From Methylocaldum marinum (GTDB taxonomy: Bacteria > Pseudomonadota > Gammaproteobacteria > Methylococcales > Methylococcaceae): DNA of 64,000 nucleotides. The position numbers and the translations under genes are program-made. Location of the stretch: NCBI RefSeq assembly GCF_003584645.1, contig NZ_AP017928.1, positions 3,262,395 through 3,326,394 on the forward strand, given 5' to 3'. The notes under the pieces were generated by a model. The model saw only the letters and a list, made by a program, of their open reading frames with translations. It was not told the DNA's origin and did no database searches. How positions within the stretch are numbered: position 1 is the stretch's first letter; the number at the start of each line of letters is the position of its first letter. Positions 2-32,340 of the stretch are shown here, piece after piece.

Positions 2-3000
2 TTGCAGCAGGCCCTGGCCGAGCCCCGCATCCGCATCCTGGCGGTTACCGAAGCGCCCGAATCCGCCGCGCCGGCGGACCCGGATCTCGCGGCTCCGGAC
101 GAGCTGGCCTTCATCCAGTACAGTTCCGGCAGCACGGGAACGCCGAAGGGCGTCATGGTGACCCATGCAAGTCTGATCACCAACCTGGAAGGCATCATCT
201 TCGGCGCCGACCTGAGCACGCGCGATGCCTATCTGTGCTGGATGCCCTACCACCATGACATGGGCCTCATCGGTTTCCATTTCGTTCCCTTGGCCCTGGG
301 GATCGAGCAGGTGAACATGACCCCGTTCACCTTCGTTCGCAAGCCCACGCTCTGGATGGAAAAAATCCACCTGCACCGTTCGACCGTAACCGGCTCCCCC
401 AACTTCGGCTACCGCCATTTGCTGAGCAAGCTGAAACCGGAACACCTGAAACGCTGGGACTTGTCGTGCCTCCGGATCATTTTCAACGGCGCGGAACCGA
501 TTGCGGCCACGGTCATGGAGGAATTCCTGAGCACCCTGGGCCGGTGCGGGCTCAAGCCCGAGGCCATGTATCCGGTGTACGGCATGGCCGAGGCGACCCT
601 GGCGGTGAGCTTTCCGCCGCCCGGCACCCTTCCGCGGGTGCATTGGCTGGATCGCGGGGAACTGGCGCTGGGGCGGGCGGCCGCGGCCGAACCCCACGGC
701 GAGACAGCCGTCGCCGTGGTCGACGAAGGCTACCCGGTGCCGGGCTGCGGGCTGCGAATCGTGGACGGCGACGGTCGGGTACTGCCGGAAGGCCGGGTAG
801 GCCGCATCCAGATCGGCGGCCGCAATGTCACACGCGGCTATTACAACAATCCTTCGGCCAACGCCGCGACGTTTCACGACGGCTGGCTGGACACCGGCGA
901 CCTCGGCTTCATGATGGACGGTCGCCTGTGCGTCAGCGGACGGGCCAAGGACATCATCTTCGTCAACGGCCAGAATTTTTATGCCCATGACGTCGAAGCC
1001 CAGGCGGAAACGGTCGCCGGCGTAGACCCCGGAAAGACCATCGCCTGCGGCTGGCACGATCCCGGCTCGGGCGAGGAGCAAACCGCGATCTTTCTCGCGA
1101 TCCGCGATCCGGAAAGCCCCGAGGGCCGGTCGATCATGGCGGCGGTGTGGCAACGGGTGAACCAGGTGCTCGGCATCGCGCTGGATTACGTGGTGCCGGT
1201 CAGGGCCATTCCCAAGACGACCAGCGGAAAACTCCAGCGCTACAAGCTCCTGGAAGAGTTCCAGCAGGGCGATTACGACGCCGTAATCCATCGCGGCATC
1301 GACCTGGTGAGCGGCGCGCCGGAATCGGATACTGCCGCCGGCGAGGATCTGAGCGATCTGGTCCGGGAGGCCTGGGCGGACGTGCTCGGCCTCCCGCCGG
1401 CCAGGATCAAGCCGGACCAATCCTTTCGCTCGCTGGGCGGCACCTCCATCAAGGCGGTGCAGATCCTGGGCCGGCTGGAAGACCGTTTGAACCGGCCTCT
1501 GAACCATGAACTGCTGCTGCGTTGCCAGACCGTGCGGCAGATGGCGGAGTGGCTGGGCGGACACTCCGACCGGACTTCGGCGGCGGGTGCAGCGGACACC
1601 GTCCGCGCCCCGGATGACGCAATCGCCATCATCGGCACCGCCTGCCGGTTCCCCGGGAGCGATTCGCCGGAGGAATACTGGGAGCTTCTGAGCCAGGGCC
1701 GGGAAGCCATCGGTCCCGTGCCCGCCGACCGCTTCGCCCTACCTGAAGGCGGGCGGGACGACGGCTGGCGCGGCGGCTTCGTGCGCGACGTCTACGCCTT
1801 CGACGCGGAATTCTTCGGCATCAGTCCCGAAGAAGCCACCGACATGGACCCGCAGCAGCGCCTGTTCCTCGAGGTGGCCGCGGAAACCCTGGAGCGTGCC
1901 GGCTACTCCAGGCCGGCCCTGGACGGCGCCGAGGTCGGTTTGTTCATCGGCGCCAGCCACAACAATCACATGGAATTCCTGGTCAATGCCTTGTGCGGCG
2001 ATGCCCTGGAGAGCTTCGCCAGCCTCCGCCGCCTGCCGCCCGGCGAACGCGACGAACTGCTCAAGGAATGGCAATCCCGCTTCGGGCGACTGTCGCTGCA
2101 CGTCAATACGGCGGTGGACAATCTGCTCAACATGATCGCGGCGCGTGTCTCCCATACCTTCAACTGGAAAGGTCCCAGCTTCACCATCGACAGCGCCTGT
2201 TCCTCATCCCTGGTCGCGGTGCATCTGGCCTGCCAGAGCCTGCGCCAGGGCGAGTGCTCGATGGCGGTCGCCGGCGGCGTGAGTCTCACCCTGAGCCATT
2301 TACCCTTCCTGTTGTTCCAGCGCGCCGGCGCGCTGTCGGCTAGCGGCCGTTGCCGGGTGTTCGATGCTTCGGCCGACGGCTTCGTGCTGGGCGAAGGCGC
2401 CGGTGCGGTGTTGCTCAAACCGCTCTCCCGCGCGCTGGCGGACGGCGATCCGGTGCTGTCGGTGATTCGCGGCTCGGCGGTGAACAACGACGGGCAATCC
2501 CTGGGGGTCATGGCGCCCAACCCGGACGGCCAGCGCCAGGTCATCGATGCCGTATACCGCCAGTTCAAGCTCGACCCCGCTTCCATACAGTTCGTCGAAG
2601 CCCATGGCACCGGCACTCCGCTGGGAGATCCGAGCGAGATCCGCGCCCTGACCCAGGCCTTCGGGAACCTGGACCGGCAGAGCTGCGCGGTCGGATCGGT
2701 CAAGGCGAACATCGGCCATCTGCTCAGCGCCGCGGGCATCGCCGGCTTGATCAAGGTGGTGCTGGCCCTGCACCACAAACAGATGCCGGGGAACATCAAT
2801 CTGACCGAGCCCAGCCGGCAAATCGATTTTGCCCGGACGCCCTTTTACCCCCTGACTGCGACCCGCGCCTGGACCGTACCCGAAGGTCTGCCCCGGCGGG
2901 CAGCCATCAATTCTTTCGGATTCGGGGGCACCAACTGCCACCTGGTGGTCGAGGAAGGCGTGGCGCGCGAGCAGCCCAGGGGCGTCTGGCCCTATCATCT

Positions 3001-6000
3001 GCTCTTGCTCTCGGCGCGCAACCGCCCTGCCCTGAACCGCAGCGCCGGACGGCTGGCCGCCTATCTGGAACGCGCGCCCGCGCCGGATCCCGCCGACCTC
3101 TGCGCCACGCTGAACAGCCGCCGCAATCACTCGGCATGCAGGTATGCCCTGGTCGCCGAATCGCTCGGCGAACTCGCCGCCGGGCTCAAGGGTCTGGAAA
3201 AGCGCCAGCCCGCCGAGACCGGGTCTCCGCCGTCGCTGGCCCTGATGTTTACCGGCCAGGGCGCCCAGTATCCGGGCATGGCCGCCCAGCTCTACGAGCT
3301 GTGGCCGCGCTTCCGTCTCGCCATGGATGAGGCGGCGGCCGCCTTCGATCCCTGGCTGGACGTGCCGGTGCTGAGTTCCATTTATCACCACGAAGCCAAC
3401 CCGGAACAATTGGCGCGAACCGAAATTACCCAGCCGGCAATGTTCGTCACCGATTACGCTCTGGGTCGCGCCTTGCTGGAACTGGGGGTGCGTCCGGCCG
3501 CACTGATCGGACACAGCGTCGGCGAGTATGCCGCGGCCTGCCTGGCCGGCGCCGTGGATCTGGCCGACGCCGCCAAGGTCGTCGCCGCGCGCGGACGGCT
3601 GATGTCCGAGTTGCCGGGGCAAGGCGGCATGCTGGCGGTATTCGCGCGAGCCGATGAGTTGTCGGCCTACCTCGAGGATTATCGGGGACGGCTCTGGTTT
3701 GCGGCCAACAACGGCTCGCACCAGGTCGTGGCCGGATACCGGGACGCCGTGGCCGAACTCGCCCGCACCCTGGAAAGCCTGGGTCGCCGGGTCAAGCCCT
3801 TGCGCGTGTCCCACGCGTTTCACACGCCGCTCCTGCAACCGATGCTGGAACCCTTCGCCAAGGTGCTGGCCGAGGTGGAATGGCGTGCGCCACGGCTGCC
3901 CATCATTTCCAATATCACCGGGGACTGGCTGGCGGCCGACGGGTTCGATGCCTATTACTGGTCGCGCCACGTGCTGGAGGCCGTCCGTTTCGAGCAGGGC
4001 ATACGCACCGCGCATGCCGGCGGCATCCGCACATTCGTCGAATGCGGACCGGACAGCGTTCTCACCCACCTGGCCGCCACCGTACTGGCCGGGGAACGCG
4101 TGACCCTTGCGGCCATGATCGATCGTCGCCGGGAAAACGCCAGGACCTTGCCGGAAACCCTGGGTATTCTTTACACGGCGGGCGTCGACCTGGACTGGCG
4201 CGCTCTCGGCGAAGATTTTCCGGGCCGGCGCATCCCGCTCCCGGCCTCTCCGTTCGAGCGCAAAATCTATCGTCTGCCCCCGCTGCCGCCGGCCAAAACG
4301 CAAGGCCAGGCTTTGCTGCATCGCTGGGAATGGCCTCAAACGCCGCGCGGCGACGCCATCGCGCTGCCGCCCGGTGCGCTATTGGTGTTCGCGGGCGAGG
4401 GGCAATCGGCCTGGCTCGAGGCGCTGCGCATCCGTTTGGGGCCGGAGCGGCCGGTTCTGGCGGTGCGGCCCGGGGCGGCGTTCTCGGCCACCGACGGGAC
4501 TTTCACGGTCAACCTTTCGGATGCGGGCGACTACCGGCGGTTATGGCAAGCGGTGCTCGCCGATTACGGCGCCCCGGCCGCGGTAGTCCATGCCTGGAAT
4601 GCGGATTCGGCGAGCGCGCAGAGAAACGACGACGAGGCGCTTTACTCCGGCATCTTCAGCCTCACCTTCCTGGCCCAGGCCATGCGCGAGCCGGCGCCCG
4701 CGGAACCGTGCCGAATCCTCTGGCTGACTCGGCGCGCCCATGTCCTGGACAGCCTGGAGCCGCCGCCCGATCCGTACCAGCTGCTCGGGGTTACGTTCGC
4801 GCTGGGACTGGGGGAAGAAAACGATCATCTGGTGTTGCAGGCGGCCGATCTGGATCCCGCGCCGGCCGCTCCGGACGAGGACGTGGAGACCGTGCTCGCG
4901 GAGCTGGGGACGGCGGAATTCGGCGGCGAGATGCTCGCGATCCGCCGTTCCCGCCGCTTCCGGCGCCGTTTCGGCGCGGTCTACAACGAAACCGGCGTCT
5001 CCGAACCGCTGCTCGAGGACGGCGACACCTGCCTGATCACCGGCGGGATCGCCGGGATCGGGGCCGAAACCGCCATCGCCCTGGCGCGATCGGCCCGGAT
5101 CAACCTGGTCCTGACCGGACGGCGTCCCCTGCCGGACCGGCAAACCTGGAACGAGCTGCCGGACGGACATCCCGACGCCGCGCGCGTGGCGCTGGTGCGC
5201 CGGCTCGAATCCCTGGGCGCGACGGTGGACTACCATGCCGCCGACGTGGCCGACGCCGAAGCGATGACCGAAGCCGTCAAACGCGCGCGGGAACGCTTCG
5301 GCAGGCTGGACGGCGTCATCCATTCCGCGGGAGTGGTCGACCGCAAGGTGCTCCGCGCCACCGACAAGAACGTGGAATCGATACGGGCGGTGCTGGCCCC
5401 GAAAGTCGAAGGCAGCCTGCTGCTCCATCGGCTGACGGCCGACCAGCCGCTGAAATTCTTCATTTTGTATTCGTCCATCGCCGCCACTTGCCCGGTGTGG
5501 GCGGCCAGCCTCACCGATTATGCCGCGGCCAACGCTTTCCTCGACGGCTTCGCGGAGTGGCGGAACCGCTCCGGGGCGAAAGGCCGCGCCCTGGCGCTAA
5601 ACTGGTCGCTCTGGGACGAGACCGGCATGGGCCGCGACACCGGCCTGATGGCGCTGGTCCGCAGCAAAGGCTTGCGCGCACTGGTTCCGGAAACCGCCTG
5701 CGCCGCCTTGGCGCGGGCGCTCGCCATTCCCGGCGCCGCGGTCGTGCACGTCATCGATTTCGAGGCGGAAACGGAGACTCCGGCACCCGCCGCGACGGCA
5801 CCGTCCCCGGAGCCCGCGCCGGTCGAGCGTGAGCCGCTGGCCGCCCATCCTCCGGTACACGCCGCGGACTGGCTCGATCTGGTCCGCCAGCTCACCGGCG
5901 CGTACCTGAATGCGCCGGCGGAAGGGATCGATCCCGGCCGCAGGTTTCAGGAATTGGGCGTGGACTCGCGGGGCGCCGTGGAAATGGCGGAAAAACTGGC

Positions 6001-8743
6001 GGCGCTCCTGGGCTGCCATATCACCCCGACCCTCTTGTTCGAGTTCCAGTCGCCCCTGGACCTGGCGCGCCACCTGGAAAGCCGGCACGGCTCCGAATTC
6101 TTCTCCCGGCCGCCGGACGCTCCCGCCCCGGCCCGCCCGATAAGCGTCGCGGCCGGCGTCGCCTCCCGCTCCGAGCGCGCCGCCGACGACCGCATCGCCG
6201 TCGTCGGCATGAGCTTGCGGGTACCCGGCTGCGCCAGCACCGACCAATACTGGCGCATGCTGGCGGAGGGTCGCTGCGAAATTCGCGAGGTGCCGCGGGA
6301 ACGCTGGTCGCCGGATGATTATTTCGATGCCGCGAATCGCCACAGCCACGCCAGTTATTCGAAATGGGGCGGTTTCCTGGATCGGGTCCACGAATTCGAT
6401 CCGCAGTTCTTCGGCATCTCGCCGCGCGAAGCCAAGGCCATGGACCCGCAGCAAAGAATTTTCATGGAAGTGGCTTACGAGGCCCTGCAACAATCGGGTT
6501 ACGCCGGCGAGGGGCAGGCCCGGCGCCTCGGCGTGTTCGTCGGCTGCGAACAGAACTATTACGCGGAACATTTCATCAACCAGCAGCGCTATTGCCGCTT
6601 GCGCGACCGGATCAGGAACGCCGACTGGTACCGCCGGCTTCCGATGAGCGCACGGGCGGATTGGGACGAGGCGCTGCGCGACGTGTTGCGGCCCGCGGAG
6701 CTTCAGTCGGACGCCATCGCCGGCAACGGACTGAACGAGATCGCTTGCCGCCTGAGCCACTGGCTGAACGTGCGCGGACCGAGCCTGATCGTCAACACCG
6801 CGTGCTCCGCCGCCCTGGTCGCCACCCATCTCGCCTGCCAGAGCCTGCGCTCCGGCGAGTCGCGCATCGCCGTGGCCGGCGGGGCTTATCTGAACATGGG
6901 CTCCACCCCGTTCGTGTTTCTGAGCCGGGTCAACGCCATGTCGCCCGACGGCCGCTGTTATCCGTTCGACCGCCGGGCCAACGGCATGGTCCTGGGCGAA
7001 GGGGTCGCGGTCCTGGTGCTCAAACCGCTGGCGGACGCCTTGGCCGACGGCGACTTTATCCACGGCGTGATCCTGGGCTCGGCGATGAACAACGACGGCC
7101 ACTCTTCCGGCCTGACCGCGCCCAATCCGGCCGGCCAGGCGGATTGCGTCGCCCGCGCCTACCGCGAATCCGGTGTCGATCCCGCCACGGTCTCTTACGT
7201 GGAATGCCACGGCACCGGCACCTCCCTGGGCGATCCGGTCGAAGTGGAAGGCATGACCCAGGCCTTCCGCCGCTTCACCGACCGGCGCGGATTCTGCGGC
7301 ATCGGTTCGGTGAAATCCTCCATCGGCCACATGCTGTCGGCCGCGGGCATCCCCAGCGCCATCAAGGTCCTCCTGGCGATGCGGCACGGTTACCTGCCGC
7401 CCACGGTCAATTACGCCGAACCCAATCCTTATATCGATTTCGATGCTTCGCCATTCTTCGTCGTCGACGGCCAGGGCCGGCCGTGGACCGGAAACGGGCA
7501 GCCGCGGCGGGCCGGCGTGAACGCTTTCGGCTTCGGGGGCACCAATTGCCACCTGATCCTGGAGGAGCCTCCCCGCGCCGTGGATCAGCCTACCGGCATG
7601 GACCGGCTGCCGCTATCCGACCCGCAGCTGCTGTGCCTGACGGCCCGCACGCAGAGCGCCGTCTGCGCCTATGCCGAGGCACTGCATGCGCATCTCCGGG
7701 AAAACCCGTCCATATCCGCCGAGCAGGTGGTTTATTCCCTGAACGGCGCCCAGAGAGAAATGAATTTCCGCGCTGCTGCGGTGGTACGGGGACGGGACGA
7801 GCTCCTGGCGGTGCTAGCCGCCGTGGCCGGATCGGGCAAACACGACCGGCTGCTCCAGGGTCGCGCCAATCCGAAGCAGCCGCCGGCGATGGCCTGGATG
7901 TTCGACGACGGCCCATGGCCGGAGGGAACCGCGGATACGCTGGCACGGCGCTGTTCGGTGTTTGCCGACGCCTGGACCGCGTTCCGGAAGGCGCTGCCTC
8001 CCGGGCACGAAGCCGAACCGCACCTGCGCGCGGCGGCGGAACAATACTCACTCGGCCGGCTGCTACGGGAGCTGGACTTGGTTCCCTCGGGCCTTTGGGC
8101 CGAGGGCGCCTCAAGCCCGGTCGCCGCGGCAGTAGCGGGATGGCTGAGCCCGGCCGCCGCCGCAAGCGTGCTGATCGGCGGCGACGCGGTTCCGGAGCAC
8201 GCTGCCGGCGATCGGATCTGGCGGATTCCGATCCACACGAGCGCCGGAAAAATTTCCGTGGACAGCCCGGATTGGCCGATCCGCTTGCGTTCGGCGGCGA
8301 GCAGCCGATCCGATGGACTGGCGCCTCCCACGGATGCGCGCTTCCGGACCCTGCTCCTGGGCGGCAAGGCCGGCGAGGCGTCGGGACCGCTACCGATGAT
8401 CGGGGCCGAGCCCGACGGCGGGAGCCTGCTGACCGCGCTGGCACGCTTGTACATCGACGGCTTGAAGCTTGATACGCGCGCCTTGTGCCCGTCCGGGCTC
8501 ACCCGCGTACTGCTGCCGGCCTATCCCTTCGAGCGAAAGGCCTATCTCTACGATCCGCCGCCGGCCGAAATCGACGAATCCGCCGATATCCCGTCTCCGT
8601 CGGCGGAGCCGAATCCGCCGGAGCCGGCGCATCCCGGCCCGGCAACCGCGAGCAAGGAGCCTCAACAAGATATCGCAACCGCCCTGCTCGACGAACTGAA
8701 CCGCATCATCCTGCCCCGGCAAGCCATGAACGAGCATTCCTGA
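2..8743 (+). CDS. Hybrid FAAL/type I PKS (FAAL-ACP-KS-AT-KR-ACP-KS-AT0), 5' end outside window
   Basis: A 2,913-residue open frame that is already open at the left edge, so the true start is outside. Domains in order: C-terminal part of a fatty acyl-AMP ligase (YSSGSTGTPKG at about residue 40); ACP with GGTSIKAV (Ser 482); KS1 (about 538-985, DSACSSS with Cys 733, His 868 and His 906); malonyl-type AT (GHSVGEY, Ser 1172; HAFH); KR (TGGIAGIG, about 1675); ACP (LGVDSRG, Ser 1989); KS2 (about 2062-2520, NTACSAA with Cys 2268, His 2403 and His 2443); and a degenerate AT region in which the GHSVGE position reads AEGASS. The protein ends without an ACP, so KS2 probably works with the tandem ACPs that open the next protein. 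FAALs activate fatty acids as acyl-AMP and pass them to an ACP. The chain chemistry is inference. Confidence 0.93.
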   Translation: MQQALAEPRIRILAVTEAPESAAPADPDLAAPDELAFIQYSSGSTGTPKGVMVTHASLITNLEGIIFGADLSTRDAYLCWMPYHHDMGLIGFHFVPLALGIEQVNMTPFTFVRKPTLWMEKIHLHRSTVTGSPNFGYRHLLSKLKPEHLKRWDLSCLRIIFNGAEPIAATVMEEFLSTLGRCGLKPEAMYPVYGMAEATLAVSFPPPGTLPRVHWLDRGELALGRAAAAEPHGETAVAVVDEGYPVPGCGLRIVDGDGRVLPEGRVGRIQIGGRNVTRGYYNNPSANAATFHDGWLDTGDLGFMMDGRLCVSGRAKDIIFVNGQNFYAHDVEAQAETVAGVDPGKTIACGWHDPGSGEEQTAIFLAIRDPESPEGRSIMAAVWQRVNQVLGIALDYVVPVRAIPKTTSGKLQRYKLLEEFQQGDYDAVIHRGIDLVSGAPESDTAAGEDLSDLVREAWADVLGLPPARIKPDQSFRSLGGTSIKAVQILGRLEDRLNRPLNHELLLRCQTVRQMAEWLGGHSDRTSAAGAADTVRAPDDAIAIIGTACRFPGSDSPEEYWELLSQGREAIGPVPADRFALPEGGRDDGWRGGFVRDVYAFDAEFFGISPEEATDMDPQQRLFLEVAAETLERAGYSRPALDGAEVGLFIGASHNNHMEFLVNALCGDALESFASLRRLPPGERDELLKEWQSRFGRLSLHVNTAVDNLLNMIAARVSHTFNWKGPSFTIDSACSSSLVAVHLACQSLRQGECSMAVAGGVSLTLSHLPFLLFQRAGALSASGRCRVFDASADGFVLGEGAGAVLLKPLSRALADGDPVLSVIRGSAVNNDGQSLGVMAPNPDGQRQVIDAVYRQFKLDPASIQFVEAHGTGTPLGDPSEIRALTQAFGNLDRQSCAVGSVKANIGHLLSAAGIAGLIKVVLALHHKQMPGNINLTEPSRQIDFARTPFYPLTATRAWTVPEGLPRRAAINSFGFGGTNCHLVVEEGVAREQPRGVWPYHLLLLSARNRPALNRSAGRLAAYLERAPAPDPADLCATLNSRRNHSACRYALVAESLGELAAGLKGLEKRQPAETGSPPSLALMFTGQGAQYPGMAAQLYELWPRFRLAMDEAAAAFDPWLDVPVLSSIYHHEANPEQLARTEITQPAMFVTDYALGRALLELGVRPAALIGHSVGEYAAACLAGAVDLADAAKVVAARGRLMSELPGQGGMLAVFARADELSAYLEDYRGRLWFAANNGSHQVVAGYRDAVAELARTLESLGRRVKPLRVSHAFHTPLLQPMLEPFAKVLAEVEWRAPRLPIISNITGDWLAADGFDAYYWSRHVLEAVRFEQGIRTAHAGGIRTFVECGPDSVLTHLAATVLAGERVTLAAMIDRRRENARTLPETLGILYTAGVDLDWRALGEDFPGRRIPLPASPFERKIYRLPPLPPAKTQGQALLHRWEWPQTPRGDAIALPPGALLVFAGEGQSAWLEALRIRLGPERPVLAVRPGAAFSATDGTFTVNLSDAGDYRRLWQAVLADYGAPAAVVHAWNADSASAQRNDDEALYSGIFSLTFLAQAMREPAPAEPCRILWLTRRAHVLDSLEPPPDPYQLLGVTFALGLGEENDHLVLQAADLDPAPAAPDEDVETVLAELGTAEFGGEMLAIRRSRRFRRRFGAVYNETGVSEPLLEDGDTCLITGGIAGIGAETAIALARSARINLVLTGRRPLPDRQTWNELPDGHPDAARVALVRRLESLGATVDYHAADVADAEAMTEAVKRARERFGRLDGVIHSAGVVDRKVLRATDKNVESIRAVLAPKVEGSLLLHRLTADQPLKFFILYSSIAATCPVWAASLTDYAAANAFLDGFAEWRNRSGAKGRALALNWSLWDETGMGRDTGLMALVRSKGLRALVPETACAALARALAIPGAAVVHVIDFEAETETPAPAATAPSPEPAPVEREPLAAHPPVHAADWLDLVRQLTGAYLNAPAEGIDPGRRFQELGVDSRGAVEMAEKLAALLGCHITPTLLFEFQSPLDLARHLESRHGSEFFSRPPDAPAPARPISVAAGVASRSERAADDRIAVVGMSLRVPGCASTDQYWRMLAEGRCEIREVPRERWSPDDYFDAANRHSHASYSKWGGFLDRVHEFDPQFFGISPREAKAMDPQQRIFMEVAYEALQQSGYAGEGQARRLGVFVGCEQNYYAEHFINQQRYCRLRDRIRNADWYRRLPMSARADWDEALRDVLRPAELQSDAIAGNGLNEIACRLSHWLNVRGPSLIVNTACSAALVATHLACQSLRSGESRIAVAGGAYLNMGSTPFVFLSRVNAMSPDGRCYPFDRRANGMVLGEGVAVLVLKPLADALADGDFIHGVILGSAMNNDGHSSGLTAPNPAGQADCVARAYRESGVDPATVSYVECHGTGTSLGDPVEVEGMTQAFRRFTDRRGFCGIGSVKSSIGHMLSAAGIPSAIKVLLAMRHGYLPPTVNYAEPNPYIDFDASPFFVVDGQGRPWTGNGQPRRAGVNAFGFGGTNCHLILEEPPRAVDQPTGMDRLPLSDPQLLCLTARTQSAVCAYAEALHAHLRENPSISAEQVVYSLNGAQREMNFRAAAVVRGRDELLAVLAAVAGSGKHDRLLQGRANPKQPPAMAWMFDDGPWPEGTADTLARRCSVFADAWTAFRKALPPGHEAEPHLRAAAEQYSLGRLLRELDLVPSGLWAEGASSPVAAAVAGWLSPAAAASVLIGGDAVPEHAAGDRIWRIPIHTSAGKISVDSPDWPIRLRSAASSRSDGLAPPTDARFRTLLLGGKAGEASGPLPMIGAEPDGGSLLTALARLYIDGLKLDTRALCPSGLTRVLLPAYPFERKAYLYDPPPAEIDESADIPSPSAEPNPPEPAHPGPATASKEPQQDIATALLDELNRIILPRQAMNEHS

Positions 8744-8833
8744 GCAGGTGCGAATCGAGCGGCCGCAGAACCGGCTTGCGGCCCCCGTGAGCCGAAAAAC
8801 GACCCATACGCTGAATACGTGAGGACTACGACC

Positions 8834-11800: not shown

Positions 11801-14800
11801 GAATGCCTGAACGGGCCGGACGATCTCATGGTGGTGCTCTACACCTCGGGTTCGACCGGGACGCCCAAGGGCGTCGCCCTCGCCCATCGCGGCTACATGA
11901 ACCGCCTGGTCTGGCATCAGAAACTGTTTCAGCTCGAGCCGGGCGAGCGCGTCGCCCAAAGAACCTCGATTTGTTTCGACATCTCGGTCTGGGAGCTCTT
12001 CTGGCCTCTCATGTACGGCGGCGTGGTCTGCCCGGTCGGCGCGGACGTGCTGCGCGATCCCTGGCGGCTGGCGGACTGGATCGAGACCCGGCGGATCGCC
12101 GCAATGCACTTCGTGCCTTCCCTGTTCGGCGAGTTCCTGATCGCCATGGACAACAAATCGCCCCGCTGCGAGCACTTGCGGTGGCTGATTTTCAGCGGCG
12201 AGGCGCTGCCCGTGGCCCATGTGCAGCGCTGGTTCGACCGCTGCGGCGAACGGGTCGGCCTCGCCAATCTGTACGGTCCCACCGAGGCCTCGATCGACGT
12301 GACCGCCCATCTGATACGCTCGCGGCCGCCGGAAGGGACGCTGCGTATCCCGATCGGACCGGCCATGCCCGGGGTATACCTGCGAATCCTGGATGAAAGC
12401 ATGAAACCCGCGCCGGAGGGCGCCGTGGGTGAGCTCTGGATCGGCGGGACGCAGTTGGCGCAGGGTTATCTCCACGATCCCGAGCGGACCCGCGAGAGTT
12501 TCAGGATCAATCCTTTCTCCGACATACCCGGCCGCTGGCTATATCGCACCGGCGACCTGGTGCAGCGCTTGCCGAACGGCAGCTACGACTTCCACGGACG
12601 GGTCGACGGCCAGATCAAGATCCGCGGCTTCCGGGTGGAACTCGGCGAGATCGAAGCCGCTCTCGGCGTCCTGCCGGGTATTCGGGAAGCCGCCGCTCTC
12701 GCCATCGACACGCCGAATGGGCACAAGCGCCTGGTGGCCTGGCTGGTCGGACGCGAATTCCCCCTGAAGGACCTGCGCGCCGCCCTGGCGAAACAACTGC
12801 CGGAGTACATGCTGCCCCACGAGGTCCGTCAGGCCGATGCGCTGCCCAAGAATCATAACGGCAAACTCGACCGCAAGTCGCTCAAAGAGTGGACCGAAAC
12901 CGGCAAGGCGCCCCCCTTGAAGGCGGTTTCCGGCACGCCGGAGATCCAGCTGCCGAGCGCCGATCCTAGCGCCGGCTTGCCCCTGGGGCCGGCGCAATCC
13001 TGGATCACCCGCTTCTTCCAGCCGCCTTACCAATGGGCCGGCTACACCCGCTTCCGCTATTTGCAGCCGCTGGACGTCGACGTTTTCCGCAAGGCCATAG
13101 ACGCGCTCGCTCGGCGCCATCCGGTGCTGCGCTCCCTGTTCTACCAGGAGCACGGCGAATGGCGGCAAACCGTGGCCCCGCCCGAGTCCGAATTCAGCCT
13201 GGATTTTTATGACGGCGCCCACCTCACGGCCGAACAGCGCAGCGTGGAAATTCGGCGGCTGGTAAGGGAAATCACGGATGAACTGCGCATCGACCGGTTC
13301 CCCTTGTGGCGGGTGCTGGTCATCAAGGAGCGCGACGACGCCCACGACCTGACCATAGTGGGTCACCACATGATCAGCGACCTGGTCAGCAACAGCATTC
13401 TGTTCCGGGAGCTCTGGCAGATTTACGGACAGTTGCTGGTCGATCGGGCGCCGGAGCTTGCGCCTCCCCCGCCCTCGTATTTCGATTTCGTGCAATGGCT
13501 GGCCCAGCCGGAGCAGCAGGAAGCGCAGCGCCGTTACGCGGACTACTGGCGCGCCTGTTTCCCGAGCCGGGAATATGCCTTCCGGGTGCCGCTCGACCAT
13601 CATCTCGGCGCGAACGACGAGGCCTCTTCCGCCAGCGAGCGTTTCGTACTCGGCCATTCCGGCTTTCATGCGCTCAACGAGGCGCGCAAGCATCTCCAGG
13701 GCCAGCTCTACCATCTCCTGCTGGCGGCGGCCTACCGGCTGATGGCCGAATGGAGCGGCCAATCCCGGGTGGTCCTGAGCCACCGCTCGCACGGACGCGA
13801 TCCGGGCAATGGCCTGACCTTGTACGACAGCGTGGGCAATTACGCCGTGAATTTCCCGCTCGCCGTGGAACTGGACACCGGAGAAAGCTGGCGCGAACTG
13901 ATCGGCCGAATCGCCCGCGGCCTTGCCGAAGCGCCGTTGAACGGGATCAGCTTCGACGTGGTGGGCCGCCAATTGCCCGCGCACATCTACCCGGACAACA
14001 ATCTGACCCCGGTACGCATCAATTATTTGGGAAATCGCAGCTTACCGAAGTCCAACATCTTCGAGTTCATCGATACCGATTGGGATCAACGCTACTCGCC
14101 CCCGAGCCAGCAGCGCATATCCCTGATCGAGATTTTCCTTTCCATGGTCGAAGGCGAACTCCGGGTCGAGCTCAATTATTCCCGGAATTTTTTCAAGGCC
14201 GAGACCATCGAGCGTCTCGGCCGGCGCTACCTGGAACTGCTGAACGAGCTGAGTGCAACGCCGAACTCGCCGACCGCGCTCCGCCTGGTGAGCCCGCCGG
14301 CGGTGCCGGCGAGCGAAGCTCCGGCCCTGATACCGCTGAAAACGCCCCGGCTGCAGGAAATCCCCCTGTCGGCGCGCTCCGCCGGCCGCGCCGTCAAAGC
14401 GGCGCTGGTTACCGGCGCGAGCCGCGGCATCGGCCGGGCGATCGCCCGAAAACTCGCCGGCCAGGGCATTGCCGTGGCGCTTTCCGCCCGCGACCCGGCC
14501 GGGCTCGAGGCCGTGGCCCGGGAAATCGCCGACAGCGGCGGCACCGCCCTGGTCGTTCCGGCGGATGTGCGCAAGCTCGATGAGGTGCAACACCTGGTGG
14601 GCAAAGTCCTTTGCCGCTTCGGCCGCCTGGACGTACTGGTCAACAATGCCGGAATCACCGGCATGTCGGCCTTGGCGAGCTCCTCGCCGGAAGAATGGAA
14701 ACGCATCGTCGAAGTCAATCTGTTCGGCGCCTATCATCTGTGCCGCAGCGTGGTGCCGCACATGATCGAGCGGCGCAGCGGGAAAATCGTGAACCTGGGT

Positions 14801-15175
14801 TCCGATTCCAGCCATATCGGCTATCCGCTGTTCAGCGCCTACGCCGCCTCCAAGCACGCGGTGCTGGGCCTGACCAAGTCGCTGAGCGAGGAACTGAAGC
14901 CGCACGATGTCCAGGTCAACGCGGTCTGCCCGGCGTTCGTCGACACCGACATGACCCCGCCCGGCTACCGCGCGCGATCCATTCCGGTCGACGCGGTCGC
15001 GGACGCGGTGGCCTTCCTGGCGTCGGCGGAGGCCGACTGGATCACCGGCCAGCATCTCTGCATCTACGGCCGCCAGGACATGTACTGGTTCGGCTCGGAA
15101 AAAATGGCGGCCGTCGAGACGCGATCGGGAGTCCGCCAATCGGAGGGCGCGAGCACGGAGCGGCGGCATGCCTAA
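8834..15175 (+). CDS. Hybrid carrier/NRPS megasynthase (ACP-ACP-C-ACP-A-C-SDR)
   Basis: A 2,113-residue protein starting at ATG 8834, with GAGG at 8821-8824; a GTG at 8819 is less likely. Domains: two near-identical ACPs (LGLDSIKTVELM, Ser 42 and Ser 176); a condensation-like domain with HHVFSDG (about 397-403); a third carrier (LGLDSLERIR, Ser 760); an adenylation domain (YTSGSTGTPKG at about 1000, YGPTEAS); a second C domain (HHMISDL, about 1511); and a C-terminal short-chain reductase (TGASRGIG at about 1858, later YAASK). Aligning the A-domain pocket by eye to GrsA gives D-I-W-H-I-S-L-I-D, close to the serine code. No carrier follows the A domain, so the order is C-T-A rather than C-A-T, and no thioesterase is present. 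Its stop overlaps the next start by 8 nt. Confidence 0.93.
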   Translation: MQDHPAARLEKCVYKAVAEVTGHALDELSPDLFLESDLGLDSIKTVELMNAIPPQLPDHLREAFDAQLGAGTLFQLQTLGELVAIIAAMGSGEAPLPAAEADPLAAAHRTPVLDVAGRQAFADEPAGSSASSRRSDAGEKSGLARNIRETVAGITGHDPSELTADMFLESDLGLDSIKTVELMNALASALPAELQDDFGAKLASGALFNIQTLGELEALIRGEEPGAPAPAALECASPCAKSAAPALPADQPPAVEPVARPMDILFSQYPFLVSHWAVCTCSLSSRIRLQGPFDAELARRAWNALLERHPMLRARFVIPPGCQSLKEYRLEVLDGVTAPAVDVTDLRHLDAPARDAFLNDETHRLLDKEWHLDQWPVHQFAAYRLADDLHEVVFSNHHVFSDGLGNQLVMREFVTLYAAAATGRPAPLPPSTALERYRETVQRINGWQDPEAEKALEAFLRAQGKDRFFWSPEKKGLPKNTRAANRTHHFCADPETTAALLRSAGKWRLPVNTLLAAAYLRALGSLDPALTQVILNIPTSGRVYPGTDAGHMVGCFAQNLALTLTLPGEHEALENYLPQLHERIESAIAAGYDRAQTRQAAVAVVDQLRLQDGRVGEPLATLIRSTIKSNLYLPYIGQTRIEESYGPLRVVEYHAATSTNPGTLDVLVEVFHGRFNMTANYDADYFTPALVAAIAEEFVRRIGDVARAGERLSAPPPAPLAAVDESLAARLLRVTGEVAHRAVGPEALDYDLESELGLDSLERIRIVGRLQQQMGPVDTRALLGCRRLREMATLLQGAAGKTEAGETNAMARPVPPPTLRPMNEELPPIPYLHVQAQCRRTPEALAVQAEHEELSYGRLHTESNRLAHFLRARGVRPGIVVGLLLTRSSNFATAVMGVLKAGGAYVPIDPAYPPARIEYIVAHARIDTILTEESVLETMGGAVTAALPARTFLLMDCDYAGLHRADSRCGDHRDWLGRAVWASYPEHEPECLNGPDDLMVVLYTSGSTGTPKGVALAHRGYMNRLVWHQKLFQLEPGERVAQRTSICFDISVWELFWPLMYGGVVCPVGADVLRDPWRLADWIETRRIAAMHFVPSLFGEFLIAMDNKSPRCEHLRWLIFSGEALPVAHVQRWFDRCGERVGLANLYGPTEASIDVTAHLIRSRPPEGTLRIPIGPAMPGVYLRILDESMKPAPEGAVGELWIGGTQLAQGYLHDPERTRESFRINPFSDIPGRWLYRTGDLVQRLPNGSYDFHGRVDGQIKIRGFRVELGEIEAALGVLPGIREAAALAIDTPNGHKRLVAWLVGREFPLKDLRAALAKQLPEYMLPHEVRQADALPKNHNGKLDRKSLKEWTETGKAPPLKAVSGTPEIQLPSADPSAGLPLGPAQSWITRFFQPPYQWAGYTRFRYLQPLDVDVFRKAIDALARRHPVLRSLFYQEHGEWRQTVAPPESEFSLDFYDGAHLTAEQRSVEIRRLVREITDELRIDRFPLWRVLVIKERDDAHDLTIVGHHMISDLVSNSILFRELWQIYGQLLVDRAPELAPPPPSYFDFVQWLAQPEQQEAQRRYADYWRACFPSREYAFRVPLDHHLGANDEASSASERFVLGHSGFHALNEARKHLQGQLYHLLLAAAYRLMAEWSGQSRVVLSHRSHGRDPGNGLTLYDSVGNYAVNFPLAVELDTGESWRELIGRIARGLAEAPLNGISFDVVGRQLPAHIYPDNNLTPVRINYLGNRSLPKSNIFEFIDTDWDQRYSPPSQQRISLIEIFLSMVEGELRVELNYSRNFFKAETIERLGRRYLELLNELSATPNSPTALRLVSPPAVPASEAPALIPLKTPRLQEIPLSARSAGRAVKAALVTGASRGIGRAIARKLAGQGIAVALSARDPAGLEAVAREIADSGGTALVVPADVRKLDEVQHLVGKVLCRFGRLDVLVNNAGITGMSALASSSPEEWKRIVEVNLFGAYHLCRSVVPHMIERRSGKIVNLGSDSSHIGYPLFSAYAASKHAVLGLTKSLSEELKPHDVQVNAVCPAFVDTDMTPPGYRARSIPVDAVADAVAFLASAEADWITGQHLCIYGRQDMYWFGSEKMAAVETRSGVRQSEGASTERRHA
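9183..9202. repeat. REP-family palindrome inside the megasynthase gene
   Basis: GTCGGCAAGCCTTTGCCGAC is the same imperfect palindrome seen in the intergenic REP copies at 18379, 21876, 40324 and elsewhere. Here it sits in frame in the linker between ACP1 and ACP2 and is read as VGRQAFADEPA. Confidence 0.85.
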
Positions 15176-16427
15176 ATCCGGTCCGCCCACGCCCGAACAT
15201 CCGCTGGCGGGCGTCGCGCTGGGAACGCTGTACGCCCTCGGCGGGTTGCTGGGAATATCGCTCGGAATCCTCAACCCGATCATCGCCATCGTCCTGGAAG
15301 AGCGCGGCGTCGACGGGGTATTGATAGGCGCCAACGCATCGCTGCCGTTTGTCTGCGTGGCCCTGGCCGCCCCCCTGGCCGGCCGTGCTCTGCGGCGGGT
15401 CGGGCTGCGCCGGGTCGTGGCCGTGGGCCTCCTGGCCTACGCGGGTGCGGCCGTGGCCTTTCCCGAGCAAACCGGCATCGGCGCCTGGTTCGGCTTGCGC
15501 GGATTGATGGGCCTGGGTCTGGCCTGTGCGATGATCGGCACTCAAACCGGCCTGTCATGTTTTGCCGGGGAGGAACGCCGGGCGCTGGCCAACGGTATTT
15601 ACGGCTTGTGTTTCGGCATCGGATTGGCCGTGGGCCCGGTCGTGGGTTCATATTTGTACGGGCTCGCCCATCATCTGCCGTTCTCCGCCGCCGCCGTGCT
15701 CCTGGTTCAAGCCGGCGTCCTGGTGGCCATCGGCCTGCCCGGCGCGCGCGCCGAACCGGAACGCGCAAGCGCCCGCCTGCTGCTGCGCGCCGCAATCCCG
15801 GTGCAGGCGGTATTGGCCTACGGCTTTGCGGAAGCCACCCTACTGACGTTGTATCCCGCGGTACTGGTGCGACAGGGTTTCACCGCCATGGCCGTTGCCC
15901 ATCACCTGGCGGCGTTCGTCCTGGGGGGCTTGCTGGGCACTCTGCCGGTCAGCCACCTCGGGGACCGTCTGGGCTACCGCCGTGTGCTGTTCGGTTGCGG
16001 CCTGGCAGGCATCATCGCCCTGGCGGCACTGATGCGGATCGATTCGGTCTGTACCCTTATCGCCGATGTCTGGGCACTCCTGGGGCTGGAATCCAGGCCA
16101 CCCGCCGCGGAGTTCGTCGCCGGCGCGGCGGCCATTGCGACCGGACTGACCCTGGGACCGGTATTCGCCCTGGCTCTCGCGCTGCTCGCCACGCTCCTGT
16201 CCAGAGCCCAACTTCCGGGCGGCACCGCCTTGTTCACCGCGGCCTTCGCCGTCGGCTCGGCCGGCGGCCCCTGGCTGTCGGCGTGGCTCGTGCAGCATGA
16301 GGGTGGCCGGCACCTGTTCACGCCTTCCATGGCCCTGTTCGGGCTGCTGGTGCTGAGCCTGGCGATGAACTGGTTGTGGCGCCGGCTCCGGAGCCTCGCG
16401 GGTGCCTATGCGATCGATGCCGGCTGA
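15168..16427 (+). CDS. MFS family exporter of the biosynthetic cluster
   Basis: A 419-residue, strongly hydrophobic protein with about 12 membrane segments and basic cytoplasmic loops after the second and third helices (GRALRRVGLRRVV), as in major facilitator transporters of the drug-efflux type. The ATG lies 8 nt inside the end of the megasynthase gene, so the two are translationally coupled. Position and class suggest export of the product, or self-protection. The substrate cannot be read from the sequence. Confidence 0.85.
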   Translation: MPKSGPPTPEHPLAGVALGTLYALGGLLGISLGILNPIIAIVLEERGVDGVLIGANASLPFVCVALAAPLAGRALRRVGLRRVVAVGLLAYAGAAVAFPEQTGIGAWFGLRGLMGLGLACAMIGTQTGLSCFAGEERRALANGIYGLCFGIGLAVGPVVGSYLYGLAHHLPFSAAAVLLVQAGVLVAIGLPGARAEPERASARLLLRAAIPVQAVLAYGFAEATLLTLYPAVLVRQGFTAMAVAHHLAAFVLGGLLGTLPVSHLGDRLGYRRVLFGCGLAGIIALAALMRIDSVCTLIADVWALLGLESRPPAAEFVAGAAAIATGLTLGPVFALALALLATLLSRAQLPGGTALFTAAFAVGSAGGPWLSAWLVQHEGGRHLFTPSMALFGLLVLSLAMNWLWRRLRSLAGAYAIDAG

Positions 16428-16548
16428 ATCGATACGGCGGCGGGCCGGCCGGAGCGACGTCCGCGTCTTCTCCGGCCCGCGCTGGCCTACACCCGACTAC
16501 AATTAATGAAACACATGTTCGTCAAGGCCGATGAAAAGGAAATGCAGC

Positions 16549-17706
16549 ATGACCCGCCCCGATCCGATCCTGCAGAGCCGTCGGCGATTTCTGCGCCAAA
16601 CCGGCGCTCTCGCCGCCGGCGCGGTCATCTCTCCGGACTTGTTCAGGGCCGCTCACGCGGCGCAGAGCACTTCGCCGTACCTCGCGTGGGAACAAACTAC
16701 CAAAGGCGACCTGACCGATCTGGAATACGTGGCGCTCTGCGGCACACTGGCCGCCAATGCCCACAACACTCAGCCCTGGGCCTTCAACCTGCTGGGCAAT
16801 CGGATCGTTCTCTACGCCGACCTTGCCCGCCACCTGGGCCGGGCCGATCCCCGCCGCCGGCTCATGCTGATGGGCCTGGGCTGCGCAGCCGAGAACATGG
16901 TCGTGGCGGCGGCGCAGCTCGGTTATGCAGCCACGGTGGCCGACACGGAGGCCGGTGGTTTTCTGGAAAACGGGGGCCGTTGTGCGGCGCTGGAGTTGAC
17001 CCGGCGATCCGATTCGAACAGTCACCCGTGGTTTCCGGCCCTATTCCGCCGCCAGACCACCCGCGCCGAGTTCGGGCCGTTGTCGATCCCCCGCAACGAA
17101 TTCACCGCAAGCCTTGACGTCCATGGCGAAATCCCGGGCGTTCACCTCGCCTGGTATGGCACCGCCTCCGAACATGAAGCCATCGTCCGAATCACCGCCG
17201 ATGCCGCCGCCGAGTTCGTGGCGAACGATGCGGCCTACCGGGATTCGATGGCCTGGTTCCGCCGGTCCAGGCGGGAATGGGAAACCTACCGCGACGGGAT
17301 CTCGATCTTCACCAGCGATGCTCCCTGGCTGGTGAAAGAATGGGTGGAGCTCCTGTCCACCCCCGAGGATCTGGTATCGGCCGAGTTCCGCCAGGGCGAG
17401 ATCGACGTCGTGAAACGCCTGGCCGAAGCGACGCCGCTTTGGAGCTTGGTGTGGAGCGAGCGGGATACCCCGCACGCCTGGTTTCAGGGCGGTCGGCTGA
17501 TGGAGCGGGTTTATCTCGCGGCCGCCGCACAGGGGCTTGCCCTACATCCCCTGGCGTACCCGACCGAATCTCCCGTGGGCTCCGCCGGTTTGGCGAAGTC
17601 GCTCGGCCTTGCTCCGGGGGCGGTGCCTCTGATGCTGCTGCGCGTCGGCCTCGCCCGGCCTTTGGAGCGTTCGGTGCGCCGGCCACTGGAAGCGGTACTT
17701 CGTTGA
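16549..17706 (+). CDS. Tat-exported Acg/nitroreductase-family protein
   Basis: A 385-residue protein from ATG 16549, chosen because AAAAGGA at 16534-16540 lies 8 nt upstream; an in-frame ATG at 16531 has no such signal. The N-terminus has a twin-arginine signal (SRRRFLRQ followed by a short hydrophobic stretch and AHA), so the folded protein is probably exported. The body (AANAHNTQPWAF, then GLGCAAENM and a C-terminal region with LAYPTESP) resembles the Acg-type flavin-binding nitroreductase-like proteins. It lies 121 nt after the exporter gene and 3 nt before a FabZ-like gene. A tailoring oxidoreductase role is possible but unproven. Confidence 0.7.
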   Translation: MTRPDPILQSRRRFLRQTGALAAGAVISPDLFRAAHAAQSTSPYLAWEQTTKGDLTDLEYVALCGTLAANAHNTQPWAFNLLGNRIVLYADLARHLGRADPRRRLMLMGLGCAAENMVVAAAQLGYAATVADTEAGGFLENGGRCAALELTRRSDSNSHPWFPALFRRQTTRAEFGPLSIPRNEFTASLDVHGEIPGVHLAWYGTASEHEAIVRITADAAAEFVANDAAYRDSMAWFRRSRREWETYRDGISIFTSDAPWLVKEWVELLSTPEDLVSAEFRQGEIDVVKRLAEATPLWSLVWSERDTPHAWFQGGRLMERVYLAAAAQGLALHPLAYPTESPVGSAGLAKSLGLAPGAVPLMLLRVGLARPLERSVRRPLEAVLR

Positions 17707-17709
17707 TTC

Positions 17710-18336
17710 ATGCTGACAAAATTAGGCGGTCCCATGCTAGACAAGATTCTTTCGCTCCGGAACTCCCCGATCCATACCCGTTATTTCATCAGTCGTATCC
17801 GGGGATTACTCGACGCCGGACTGGACGCGGCAACGCCGGATCCGGTACGGACACAACACACCCTGTTCCCCACGGCGGGGATCGACGTTGCCTTGCCCAA
17901 AGTCGGGCGCGACATGATCGGCGAAGTGATTCCCCACCGCGGCGAAATGCTGCTGCTGGACTACATCGCCTGGGTCGACGATGATTTCCGCCGCGGTCTG
18001 GCGGTAAAAAAGATCAGGGAGGACGAGTTCTGGGTGGCCGGCCATTTCCCCGGGCATCCCATCATGCCCGGCGCACTCATGCTCGAAGCCAGCGCGCAAC
18101 TGGCCCTGTACTTGTCCAACCGGCGCCTGGCGGAACCGGCGGTCGGACTGTTCGTGCGTATCGAGAATGCCCGCTTCCGAAGCACCGCCGAACCCGGCGA
18201 CGAGTTGCTCATCCTCTGCGAAAACGTCGAACAAGCCCGCAATATCTTTTATTACGACGTGCAAGGACTAATCAAGGACCGCATCGTCTTCGAGAGCCGA
18301 ATCGTCGGCCTGCTGTCGAAAGCCAAGAAGAAATGA
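17710..18336 (+). CDS. FabZ/FabA-like 3-hydroxyacyl-ACP dehydratase (hot-dog fold)
   Basis: A 208-residue protein with the dehydratase signature HFPGHPIMPGALMLEASAQ (residues about 114-132), containing the catalytic His and Glu of the FabZ family, preceded by IPHRGEMLLLDYI. It is longer than FabZ (about 150 aa), with about 70 extra N-terminal residues; a second ATG at 17734 shortens it by 8. It lies 3 nt after the preceding gene and is the last gene of the run. The PKS modules have a KR but no DH, so a free-standing dehydratase acting in trans is a reasonable inference. Confidence 0.8.
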   Translation: MLTKLGGPMLDKILSLRNSPIHTRYFISRIRGLLDAGLDAATPDPVRTQHTLFPTAGIDVALPKVGRDMIGEVIPHRGEMLLLDYIAWVDDDFRRGLAVKKIREDEFWVAGHFPGHPIMPGALMLEASAQLALYLSNRRLAEPAVGLFVRIENARFRSTAEPGDELLILCENVEQARNIFYYDVQGLIKDRIVFESRIVGLLSKAKKK

Positions 18337-19227: not shown

Positions 19228-20184
19228 ATGTCTGACTTTCACCACACCTATACTTTCGATCCCACCTACGGCTATACCCAGAACGCGCTACTCCAGGTCG
19301 GAACTCCGGACATTCCGGACGATTTCGCCGCATTTTGGGAGTCCCGCTACCGCCGGGCGCTGACAACCTCGCCCCAACCGCGCCTGAACCAATGGCCGGA
19401 CGATAGGGAGGGTTTTGCCGTGTACGACCTCGAATACCGTTCCACCGACGATTTCACCATCGGCGGATGGCTGCTCCTGCCGCAAGGCCGGCCGGTGCGG
19501 CGCGGCGTGGTGGTGGGACACGGCTACGGCGGCCGGGATGGTCCGGATTTCGACCTGCCCGTCGCCGACGCCGCCTTCCTGTTTCCCTGTTTTCGCGGCC
19601 TTTCCAGAAGCCGCCGGCCGCCCATTTCGGACGAACCCTACTGGCACGTTCTGCACGACATCGACAAGCGCGACCGCTACATTCTCGGCGGCTGCGTGGA
19701 TGATGTGTGGCTCGCGGTTTCGGCCCTCCTCGAACTGTGCCCCGAAACCGCCGCTCATATCGGCTACATGGGCATCAGCTTCGGTGGCGGCATCGGCGCC
19801 CTGGCCCTGCCCTGGGACCCCCGCATCCGGCGAGCGCACCTGAACATGCCCACCTTCGGCCATCACCCCCTGCGCCTCGAACTCCCGACGGTGGGCAGCG
19901 GACACGCCATCAGAAATTACCAGCAACAGCACGGTAACGTTATGGACACATTGCGCTATTACGATGCCGCAGGTGCGGCGGCGCATACCCAAGTCCCCGT
20001 GCTGGTCGCCGCCGCCTTGTTCGACCCGGTGGTGGCGCCGCCCGGACAATTCGCAGTCTATAACGCTCTCGCCGGACCGAAGAGCCTTTATATTCTGGAA
20101 GCCGGACATGTCGACTATCCGGCCAGAATGCGTCAGGATGCGGAATTGCGGAACATCATCGCTGACTTTTTTCAGGCACTGTAA
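19228..20184 (+). CDS. Acetylxylan-esterase-like (AXE1/CE7) alpha/beta-hydrolase
   Basis: A 318-residue protein resembling the AXE1 (CE7) esterase family. It has an N-terminal DIPDDFAAFWESRYRRAL segment, a GHGYGGRDG oxyanion region, the nucleophile elbow GISFGGG (Ser about 186), an Asp in AALFDPVV and a His in EAGHVDY near the end, giving a complete Ser-Asp-His triad. There is no signal peptide, so it is cytoplasmic. It is followed after 5 nt by a second hydrolase gene, and the two probably form an operon. Family members deacetylate carbohydrates or cephalosporins; the actual substrate is unknown. Confidence 0.8.
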   Translation: MSDFHHTYTFDPTYGYTQNALLQVGTPDIPDDFAAFWESRYRRALTTSPQPRLNQWPDDREGFAVYDLEYRSTDDFTIGGWLLLPQGRPVRRGVVVGHGYGGRDGPDFDLPVADAAFLFPCFRGLSRSRRPPISDEPYWHVLHDIDKRDRYILGGCVDDVWLAVSALLELCPETAAHIGYMGISFGGGIGALALPWDPRIRRAHLNMPTFGHHPLRLELPTVGSGHAIRNYQQQHGNVMDTLRYYDAAGAAAHTQVPVLVAAALFDPVVAPPGQFAVYNALAGPKSLYILEAGHVDYPARMRQDAELRNIIADFFQAL

Positions 20185-20237
20185 ATCTCATGGAACCACA
20201 GGTCTTCGATTGCTGCTCAGCCCCCCCGGTTATCGGC

Positions 20238-25415: not shown

Positions 25416-25677
25416 CGGTGTTCGGGCTTCATCCCTGATTGAAAACCGCCGAGATTCTGATATCGATGCATTGTCTCGGTTCGCAAGCCGTACGGACGCA
25501 GTTTCCCCCGGACAGGGAAGTCGTTTTCTCCAGAGTTTCGATTCTTGCCGGAACGCGCAACTTCGCGGCTTTTGATTTTCCGGCCGTTTCAATCAGTGCA
25601 GAGCACTGGATAAGCGTGGATTGACGATTATCGACCCAACACGACACGCCCGGCATTCGGGCTTCGCACGTTCTTTT

Positions 25678-30148: not shown

Positions 30149-30167
30149 TTGACGAAAGGAGTTATTG

Positions 30168-32338: not shown

Positions 32339-32340
32339 TT

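Follow-up and report, generated by a model that had tools for sequence, protein, structure and literature searches.

A FAAL-primed PKS-NRPS cluster of Methylocaldum marinum with a conserved C-T-A-C terminal module, adjoining export genes and a predicted serine-capped lipid product

A stretch of 64,000 nucleotides from Methylocaldum marinum (hereafter the window; positions 3262395-3326394 of contig C1 in genome G000, which consists of one contig of 6,088,916 bases) carries at its left end a hybrid polyketide synthase (PKS) and nonribosomal peptide synthetase (NRPS) cluster primed by a fatty acyl-AMP ligase (FAAL). We propose, with a probability of roughly 0.55, that this cluster is an operon for making and exporting a serine-capped lipid, which would be released by a terminal condensation-family domain, C2, and sent to the outer membrane. 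The assembly line itself is of a known FAAL/PKS-NRPS kind; what is new is its conserved, unusual terminal module, which is found on the second of two large proteins, P2. The features of P2 are as follows.

8819..15175, + strand, P2, a 2118-aa PKS-NRPS protein with the order ACP-ACP-C1-ACP3-A-C2-SDR
8876..9493, + strand, tandem acyl carrier domains ACP1-ACP2 (LESDLGLDSIKTVELMN twice), resembling polyunsaturated fatty acid synthases (PF00550; TIGR02813 PfaA, E 8e-18)
9602..10993, + strand, condensation domain C1, HHVFSDG (PF00668, E 2e-28)
11021..11233, + strand, ACP3, carrier preceding the A domain, GLDSL (PF00550, E 7e-8); same position in four clusters
11315..12889, + strand, adenylation (A) domain, code DIWHISLIDK (TIGR01733, E 3e-120)
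12980..14275, + strand, C2, condensation-family domain resembling epimerization (E) domains and lacking the epimerase Glu; HHMISDL, SHRSHGRD, INYLGN
14396..15112, + strand, C-terminal FabG-like short-chain dehydrogenase/reductase (SDR), YAASK (PF00106, E 1e-64)

The domain strings of P2 and of the first protein, P1, which had been proposed in an earlier note made from the letters of the window alone, were both borne out by Pfam, NCBIfam and motif reading, and the carrier serine is kept in all five carrier domains of the two proteins. With domain E-values reaching 1e-160 and the order of eight genes kept in a sister species, these strings lie far beyond chance. The same note had pointed out that the carrier stands ahead of the A domain and that a C-family domain follows A directly. 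This holds, and the order C1-ACP3-A-C2, which departs from the canonical C-A-T elongation module, was found in four genomes. VibF, of the vibriobactin system, also has an A domain followed directly by a C domain, and there a carrier comes after that C domain, whereas here the carrier precedes A and none follows C2. The A-domain code is DIWHISLIDK in three clusters and DVWHASLIDK in one, thus fitting the DVWHxSLxDK type, which we take to denote serine, and EntF was among the NCBIfam matches.

The four genomes are M. marinum, Methylocaldum sp. 14B, and two members of another gammaproteobacterial family (f196), G972 and G1062, and in each of them the block carries the serine code and adjoins exporter genes. 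The methanotroph setting suggested earlier is therefore too narrow. In Methylocaldum sp. 14B (contig00042 of G001; 58,123 bases), the eight genes for LolA, barrel, MMPL, P1, P2, MFS, FMN enzyme and FabZ are collinear with those of M. marinum at 82-91% identity. The C1-ACP3-A-C2 block is 85% identical in this species and 36% identical in G972 over 1715 columns, and the individual domains of G972 and G1062 are 32-58% identical to those of the window block. The C1 domains of the four clusters form a clade with support 100/100 and the C2 domains one with support 100/99, and since the internal branching order of both clades is identical, the block was inherited as a unit. The C1 domain of G972 has Glu in place of its first His (EHIISDG) and keeps the catalytic second His. 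The order C1-ACP3-A-C2 is thus a conserved feature and not an artefact or a one-off.

The clusters differ in the front end that makes the acyl chain, in the KR, in the FabZ gene and in the fused SDR, which G972 lacks. The G972 cluster (genome of 2.2 Mb) contains an MMPL gene, a PKS, a second PKS ending in ACP-C1-ACP3-A-C2, LolA, barrel, MFS and FMN enzyme genes, and two stand-alone acyltransferase (AT) genes, and reads as a trans-AT polyketide version, whereas the G1062 cluster reads as FAAL-primed. One contig of the G1062 draft carries a stand-alone AT, LolA (57% identity), barrel, MMPL (48%) and a protein of the order FAAL-ACP-KS-AT-ACP-KS followed by a dead AT, with no KR. A second contig opens with a matching post-AT linker, followed by ACP-ACP-C1-ACP3-A-C2, and because the ends match, the two contigs are probably neighbours.

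G972 and G1062 came from two genome draws, the first from the phylum and the second from relatives of the first match. The searches, run with mixed queries and cut-offs, took in up to 2,000 species-level genomes, mostly Gammaproteobacteria and with some counted repeatedly. The count of four genomes is a lower bound, as several queries and thresholds would miss relatives such as G972, and beyond the phylum the search consisted of plasmids and a narrow contig scan. That scan, with two narrow peptide patterns, returned only Methylocaldum sp. 14B, which is no evidence of rarity. On plasmids, tblastn gave generic NRPS matches only: coverage of 80% was not reached by any record for P2 or the C1-ACP3 region, and the 75 records that reached it for the G972 A-C2 stretch all had less than 60% identity. 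No published cluster with the same domain string was found in the open-licence literature.

The domain behind A had been described as a second C domain. It does belong to the condensation superfamily, with a PF00668 match, the C fold and HHxxxD, but it is not an ordinary C domain. Its nearest sequences among solved structures are mainly epimerization domains (PvdL E2, BacC, TycB3, TycA, GrsA), and its profile scores are 134-136 bits for E domains, against 117-121 for LCL domains and 78-86 for C domains of the LLLDGWS type. These scores, together with its own clade in the tree, led us to reject an ordinary LCL/DCL domain. An active epimerase was rejected as well, as none of the four C2 domains, each of which keeps HHxxxD, has retained the EGHGRE glutamate. 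Against the epimerization model TIGR01720, C2 scored 30.9 bits, below the cut-off of 74.2. It resembles the E domains of TycA, TycB3, GrsA and PvdL E2 in fold, in closest sequences and in the NYLG motif, but differs from them in lacking this Glu, in having WFTxxYP and GxGYG changed or lost, in having no carrier directly before it and in forming a separate clade. The motifs HHxxSDL, SHxxxxR, NxP, GxSxD and IYPDxxLTxxRxNYLG are common to the four clusters. An AlphaFold2 model (pLDDT 82) matched C and E domains equally, with tied Z scores of about 35-37, so the fold does not settle the type. The approximately unbiased test gave p 0.51 for C2 and E domains as a single clade; early trees with only two C1/C2 rows had long branches. 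C2 thus makes up a subfamily of its own, with epimerization domains as its relatives. Its ratio of nonsynonymous to synonymous substitution rates (dN/dS) between the two Methylocaldum species is 0.135, which indicates that it is maintained; all the other domains of P2 are under purifying selection as well. In the linker between ACP1 and ACP2 (window 9104-9268), which unlike its neighbours evolves fast, dN/dS is 0.63, with 51% identity and length differences.

Product release by C2 is our best inference from this arrangement. Alternatively, C2 may be a dead or modified epimerization domain, with the acyl-serine hydrolysing off spontaneously or being freed by a thioesterase or esterase from outside the cluster, such as the alpha/beta hydrolases encoded just downstream. 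The proximity of C2 to E domains in both sequence and profile would suit this explanation, as would the AXE1/esterase genes at 19228-20966. However, HHxxxD and the motifs proper to C2 are kept in four genomes under strong purifying selection, and the sister cluster region lacks these esterases, so we regard this alternative as somewhat unlikely. A thioesterase just left of the window in the same operon, which the earlier note had named as a refutation, was not found: neither P1 and P2 nor the genes downstream nor the scanned proteins of the 19-kb left flank matched PF00975, and such a gene was thus rejected within 19 kb. None was seen in the scanned proteins of G972 and G1062 either, two of whose cluster ends are cut by contig ends.

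Upstream of P1, three further genes lie to the left of the window.

L009:13998-14933 (between 5.4 and 4.5 kb left of window base 1), + strand, LolA-like carrier (PF17131, E 5e-57)
L009:15191-16420, + strand, outer-membrane barrel, DUF1302/Wzi-like
L009:16442-18913, + strand, HAE3/MMPL exporter, 823 aa (PF03176, E 1.4e-34, above cut-off)

The stop codon of the MMPL gene lies 18 bp ahead of the FAAL start, and the three genes are in the same operon as the FAAL gene. The best NCBIfam match of the pump is the HAE3 family TIGR00921 (E 7e-52; 176 bits, below the cut-off of 351.9), and HpnN is second. The HAE3 RND cassette AmeABCD (PMC6394551) and HpnN resemble this set in the HAE3 pump, the DUF1302-type barrel and the LolA/DUF1329-type periplasmic protein; here, in contrast, the exporter is embedded in a PKS-NRPS operon and no AmeC-type second periplasmic gene lies between LolA, barrel and MMPL. 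Homologues of the pump at about 30% identity were found in 104 of 321 genomes of the class, mostly in MMPL-LolA-barrel triads. As a FAAL-PKS adjoined the triad in none of the 20 neighbourhoods examined, the presence of a triad is by itself no predictor of the system.

In another genome of the genus (G002), a paralogous LolA/MMPL/barrel triad (L050:3488-14462) lies beside two FeeM/autoinducer-synthase-like acyltransferases, one of which matches the FeeM family, with ThiF and nitroreductase-like FMN genes also adjoining; this may possibly be a locus that makes and exports an N-acyl amino acid. At L081:3778-10065 and L086:6803-14621, in other gammaproteobacteria, HAE3 pump genes also adjoin FeeM-like and ThiF genes. 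This association is compatible with, though no proof of, N-acyl amino acids as the cargo.

Downstream of P2, three genes complete the cluster.

15168..16427, + strand, MFS exporter (PF07690, E 1e-37); homologue in the G972 cluster
16531..17706, + strand, Tat-signal FMN oxidoreductase of the Acg/Rv3131 type, leader RRRFLRQ (NF047509, E 2.9e-59, above cut-off)
17710..18336, + strand, FabZ-like 3-hydroxyacyl-ACP dehydratase, the final cluster gene (PF07977, E 1.5e-20; NF000582, E 4e-26, below cut-off)

The FMN oxidoreductase has a homologue of 35% identity in the G972 cluster, and the dehydratase is 87.5% identical to its sister homologue. The gene at 15168 had been taken for the exporter; it does encode an MFS protein, but the LolA-like, barrel and HAE3/MMPL genes are more telling. 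Were the MFS protein the main exporter, with the A domain acting iteratively or loading several carriers, the product could be a larger or soluble lipopeptide or a siderophore. Three carriers for a single A domain, an MFS gene after P2 in the Methylocaldum and G972 clusters, and the serine-loading A domains of siderophore synthetases such as EntF would agree with this. On the other hand, one A domain is all that is present, no chelator-forming gene or TonB receptor was seen within the cluster, and the operon has a dedicated HAE3/LolA/barrel export system, which together make such a product quite unlikely. Reductive release by the terminal SDR, giving an aldehyde or an alcohol (serinol-type) head group, is very improbable and was rejected, for although the SDR is the last P2 domain in both Methylocaldum species, it matches only classical FabG-like SDR families (PF00106/PF13561) and not the thioester-reductase family PF07993, and the G972 counterpart of P2 stops at C2 with no fused SDR.

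The acyl chain would be made by P1, whose features are listed below.

Start codon at C1:3261931 (463 nt left of the window), + strand, P1, a 3068-aa protein of the order FAAL-ACP-KS-AT-KR-ACP-KS followed by a dead AT
2..1291 in the window, + strand, FAAL domain (PF00501, E 1.2e-58)
1358..1555, + strand, ACPa, GGTS, predicted acyl acceptor from the FAAL (PF00550; Ser kept)
1616..3184, + strand, ketosynthase KS1 and linker, DSACSS, HGTGT, NIGH (PF00109/PF02801)
3245..4186, + strand, AT1, active by motif, GHSVGE, with HAFH of the malonyl type (PF00698, E 1.1e-51)
4403..5620, + strand, ketoreductase (KR), structural and catalytic parts, TGGIAGIG, YxxAN (PF21394, PF08659)
5849..6076, + strand, ACPb, GVDSR (PF00550, second stretch)
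6179..7516, + strand, KS2, NTACSA, HGTGT, SSIGH (PF00109/PF02801, second stretch; dN/dS 0.127)
7634..8506, + strand, vestigial AT and post-AT linker, nucleophile Ser replaced (hhalign to ATs)

The FAAL had been recognized from position 2, where the window edge cuts the gene. Known FAALs are among its best relatives in the PDB, and we regard it as genuine on these grounds. It is fused to an ACP followed by KS-AT, as in a FAAL-primed line, and the same holds in G1062, whose P1 homologue has no KR. The Cys/His/His residues are complete in KS1 and KS2. P1 had been thought to end at KS2, which is indeed present, but a dead AT that had been missed follows it. These 329 aa gave no Pfam family match; against a KS-AT profile, hhalign gave a probability of 98% (E 1.8e-13, 335 columns). 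When aligned to active ATs, the GHSxGE site reads AEGASS in the window, AEGALS in the sister species and AEGTGV in G1062. Between the two Methylocaldum species the dead AT shows no indels and a dN/dS of 0.235, compared with 0.10-0.19 for most catalytic domains, so that its constraint is looser than theirs yet not neutral. With this AT dead, KS2 either needs extender units in trans or performs no extension. Stand-alone AT genes adjoin the C1-ACP3-A-C2 block in G972 and G1062. Such ATs lie beside the related clusters at L093:16062-17934 and L108:12033-12992, and the G1062 copy has GYSAGE in place of GHSxGE.

Under the proposed pathway, the FAAL would adenylate a fatty acid and load it onto ACPa, and KS1, AT1 and KR would add and reduce one malonyl unit and pass the chain to ACPb. 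KS2 would then elongate it again onto the tandem ACP1/ACP2 with malonyl supplied in trans, and the SDR and the FabZ-like dehydratase could serve for reduction and dehydration of the chain. The A domain would activate L-serine and load it onto the upstream carrier ACP3, C1 would couple the acyl chain to serine, and the E-derived C2 would take the N-acyl-serine off ACP3, most likely by passing it on to water, an alcohol or an amine as free nucleophile. Transport of the lipid to the outer membrane would fall to the HAE3/MMPL pump with its LolA-like carrier and barrel, and the MFS exporter and the Tat-exported FMN oxidoreductase may help in export or in late periplasmic modification. The sequences themselves show the order of genes and domains, the motifs that are intact or lost, the serine-type code and the conservation across four genomes; we infer the catalytic steps from what is known of the families, as well as the supply of AT activity in trans, release by C2 and the nature of the cargo. 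A serine-capped (N-acyl-serine-type) lipid appears to be the most likely product; the lipid-serine product of the earlier note thus gains support from the serine-type code in four clusters, the FAAL sequence and a lipid-type exporter in the operon.

Several points weigh against this pathway. The Methylocaldum cluster yielded no stand-alone AT, and ACP3 would have to be loaded by an A domain placed after it. C2 could be inactive or have another role, and a thioesterase may be encoded beyond the left end of the G972 cluster or the right end of the G1062 cluster, where the contigs stop. Furthermore, the triad is common in Gammaproteobacteria with no adjoining PKS, so it is not diagnostic of the cargo, and only 3 of about 20 related exporter loci adjoin FeeM-like genes.

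Among known systems, the puwainaphycin FAAL-primed PKS/NRPS line has separate FAAL and ACP open reading frames, several amino acid modules and a terminal thioesterase (PMC4219810). Both lines would start from a FAAL-activated fatty acid, with PKS extension followed by NRPS condensation, whereas the cluster described here has one serine, the order C-T-A-C2, no thioesterase and an outer-membrane export set. Release by a terminal condensation domain is described for the palmerolide line (PMC8739492), where basiliskamide and phormidolide are cited, and for a Legionella pneumophila PKS (PMC5126622). As in these, the last domain of the line in M. marinum belongs to the C family and takes the place of a thioesterase, and the catalytic His is kept; C2, in contrast, is related to E domains, lies right behind an A domain and goes together with a serine module.

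The limits of the cluster were set by comparison with the sister species. The esterase genes at 19228-20966 have no counterpart in the sister cluster region and were rejected as members, so the cluster extends from LolA, 5.4 kb left of the window, to FabZ at 18336. Immediately to the left of the LolA-like gene, the genes lie on the opposite strand and are non-biosynthetic. Promoter and terminator scans gave signals at chance level. AXE1-like and putative esterases make up the 19228-20966 stretch, and a PhoD phosphatase gene lies at 22255-23904; neither occurs in the sister cluster region.

Elsewhere in the window, an exact direct repeat of 300 bp or longer (25676-25975 and 32339-32638, 6,663 bp apart) lies near VgrG-like genes, one of whose frames carries a fused DDE transposase fragment (27853-28608). 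A class 3 lipase is encoded at 30165-31319, and a VgrG/baseplate-like protein that ends in a Colicin D-type domain (35500-37134) resembles type VI secretion cargo. Two separate loci elsewhere in the genome are an NRPS locus of very large size, whose repeated C and E domains are near-identical (C1:1213000-1253000), and a region of about 53 kb rich in PKS genes, with KS relatives encoded on the minus strand (C1:2128900-2182200).

A bolder and still doubtful reading is that ACP-C1-ACP3-A(Ser)-C2 together with HAE3/LolA/barrel marks serine lipids of the outer membrane as a new class that has spread horizontally, with exchangeable front ends, either FAAL-primed or of the trans-AT polyketide type, feeding a common terminal unit whose repurposed E-type domain would release the product by transfer to a membrane acceptor. 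The comparison of four genomes separates a fixed part, the serine module and exporter, from an exchangeable acyl chain, which eases chemical testing. If the proposal is true, a non-canonical C-T-A-C terminal NRPS module and a new release domain would join the rules for predicting products from sequence, and methanotrophs and other gammaproteobacteria would have an undescribed class of serine lipids in their outer membrane, with a dedicated export route from the inner membrane to the surface.

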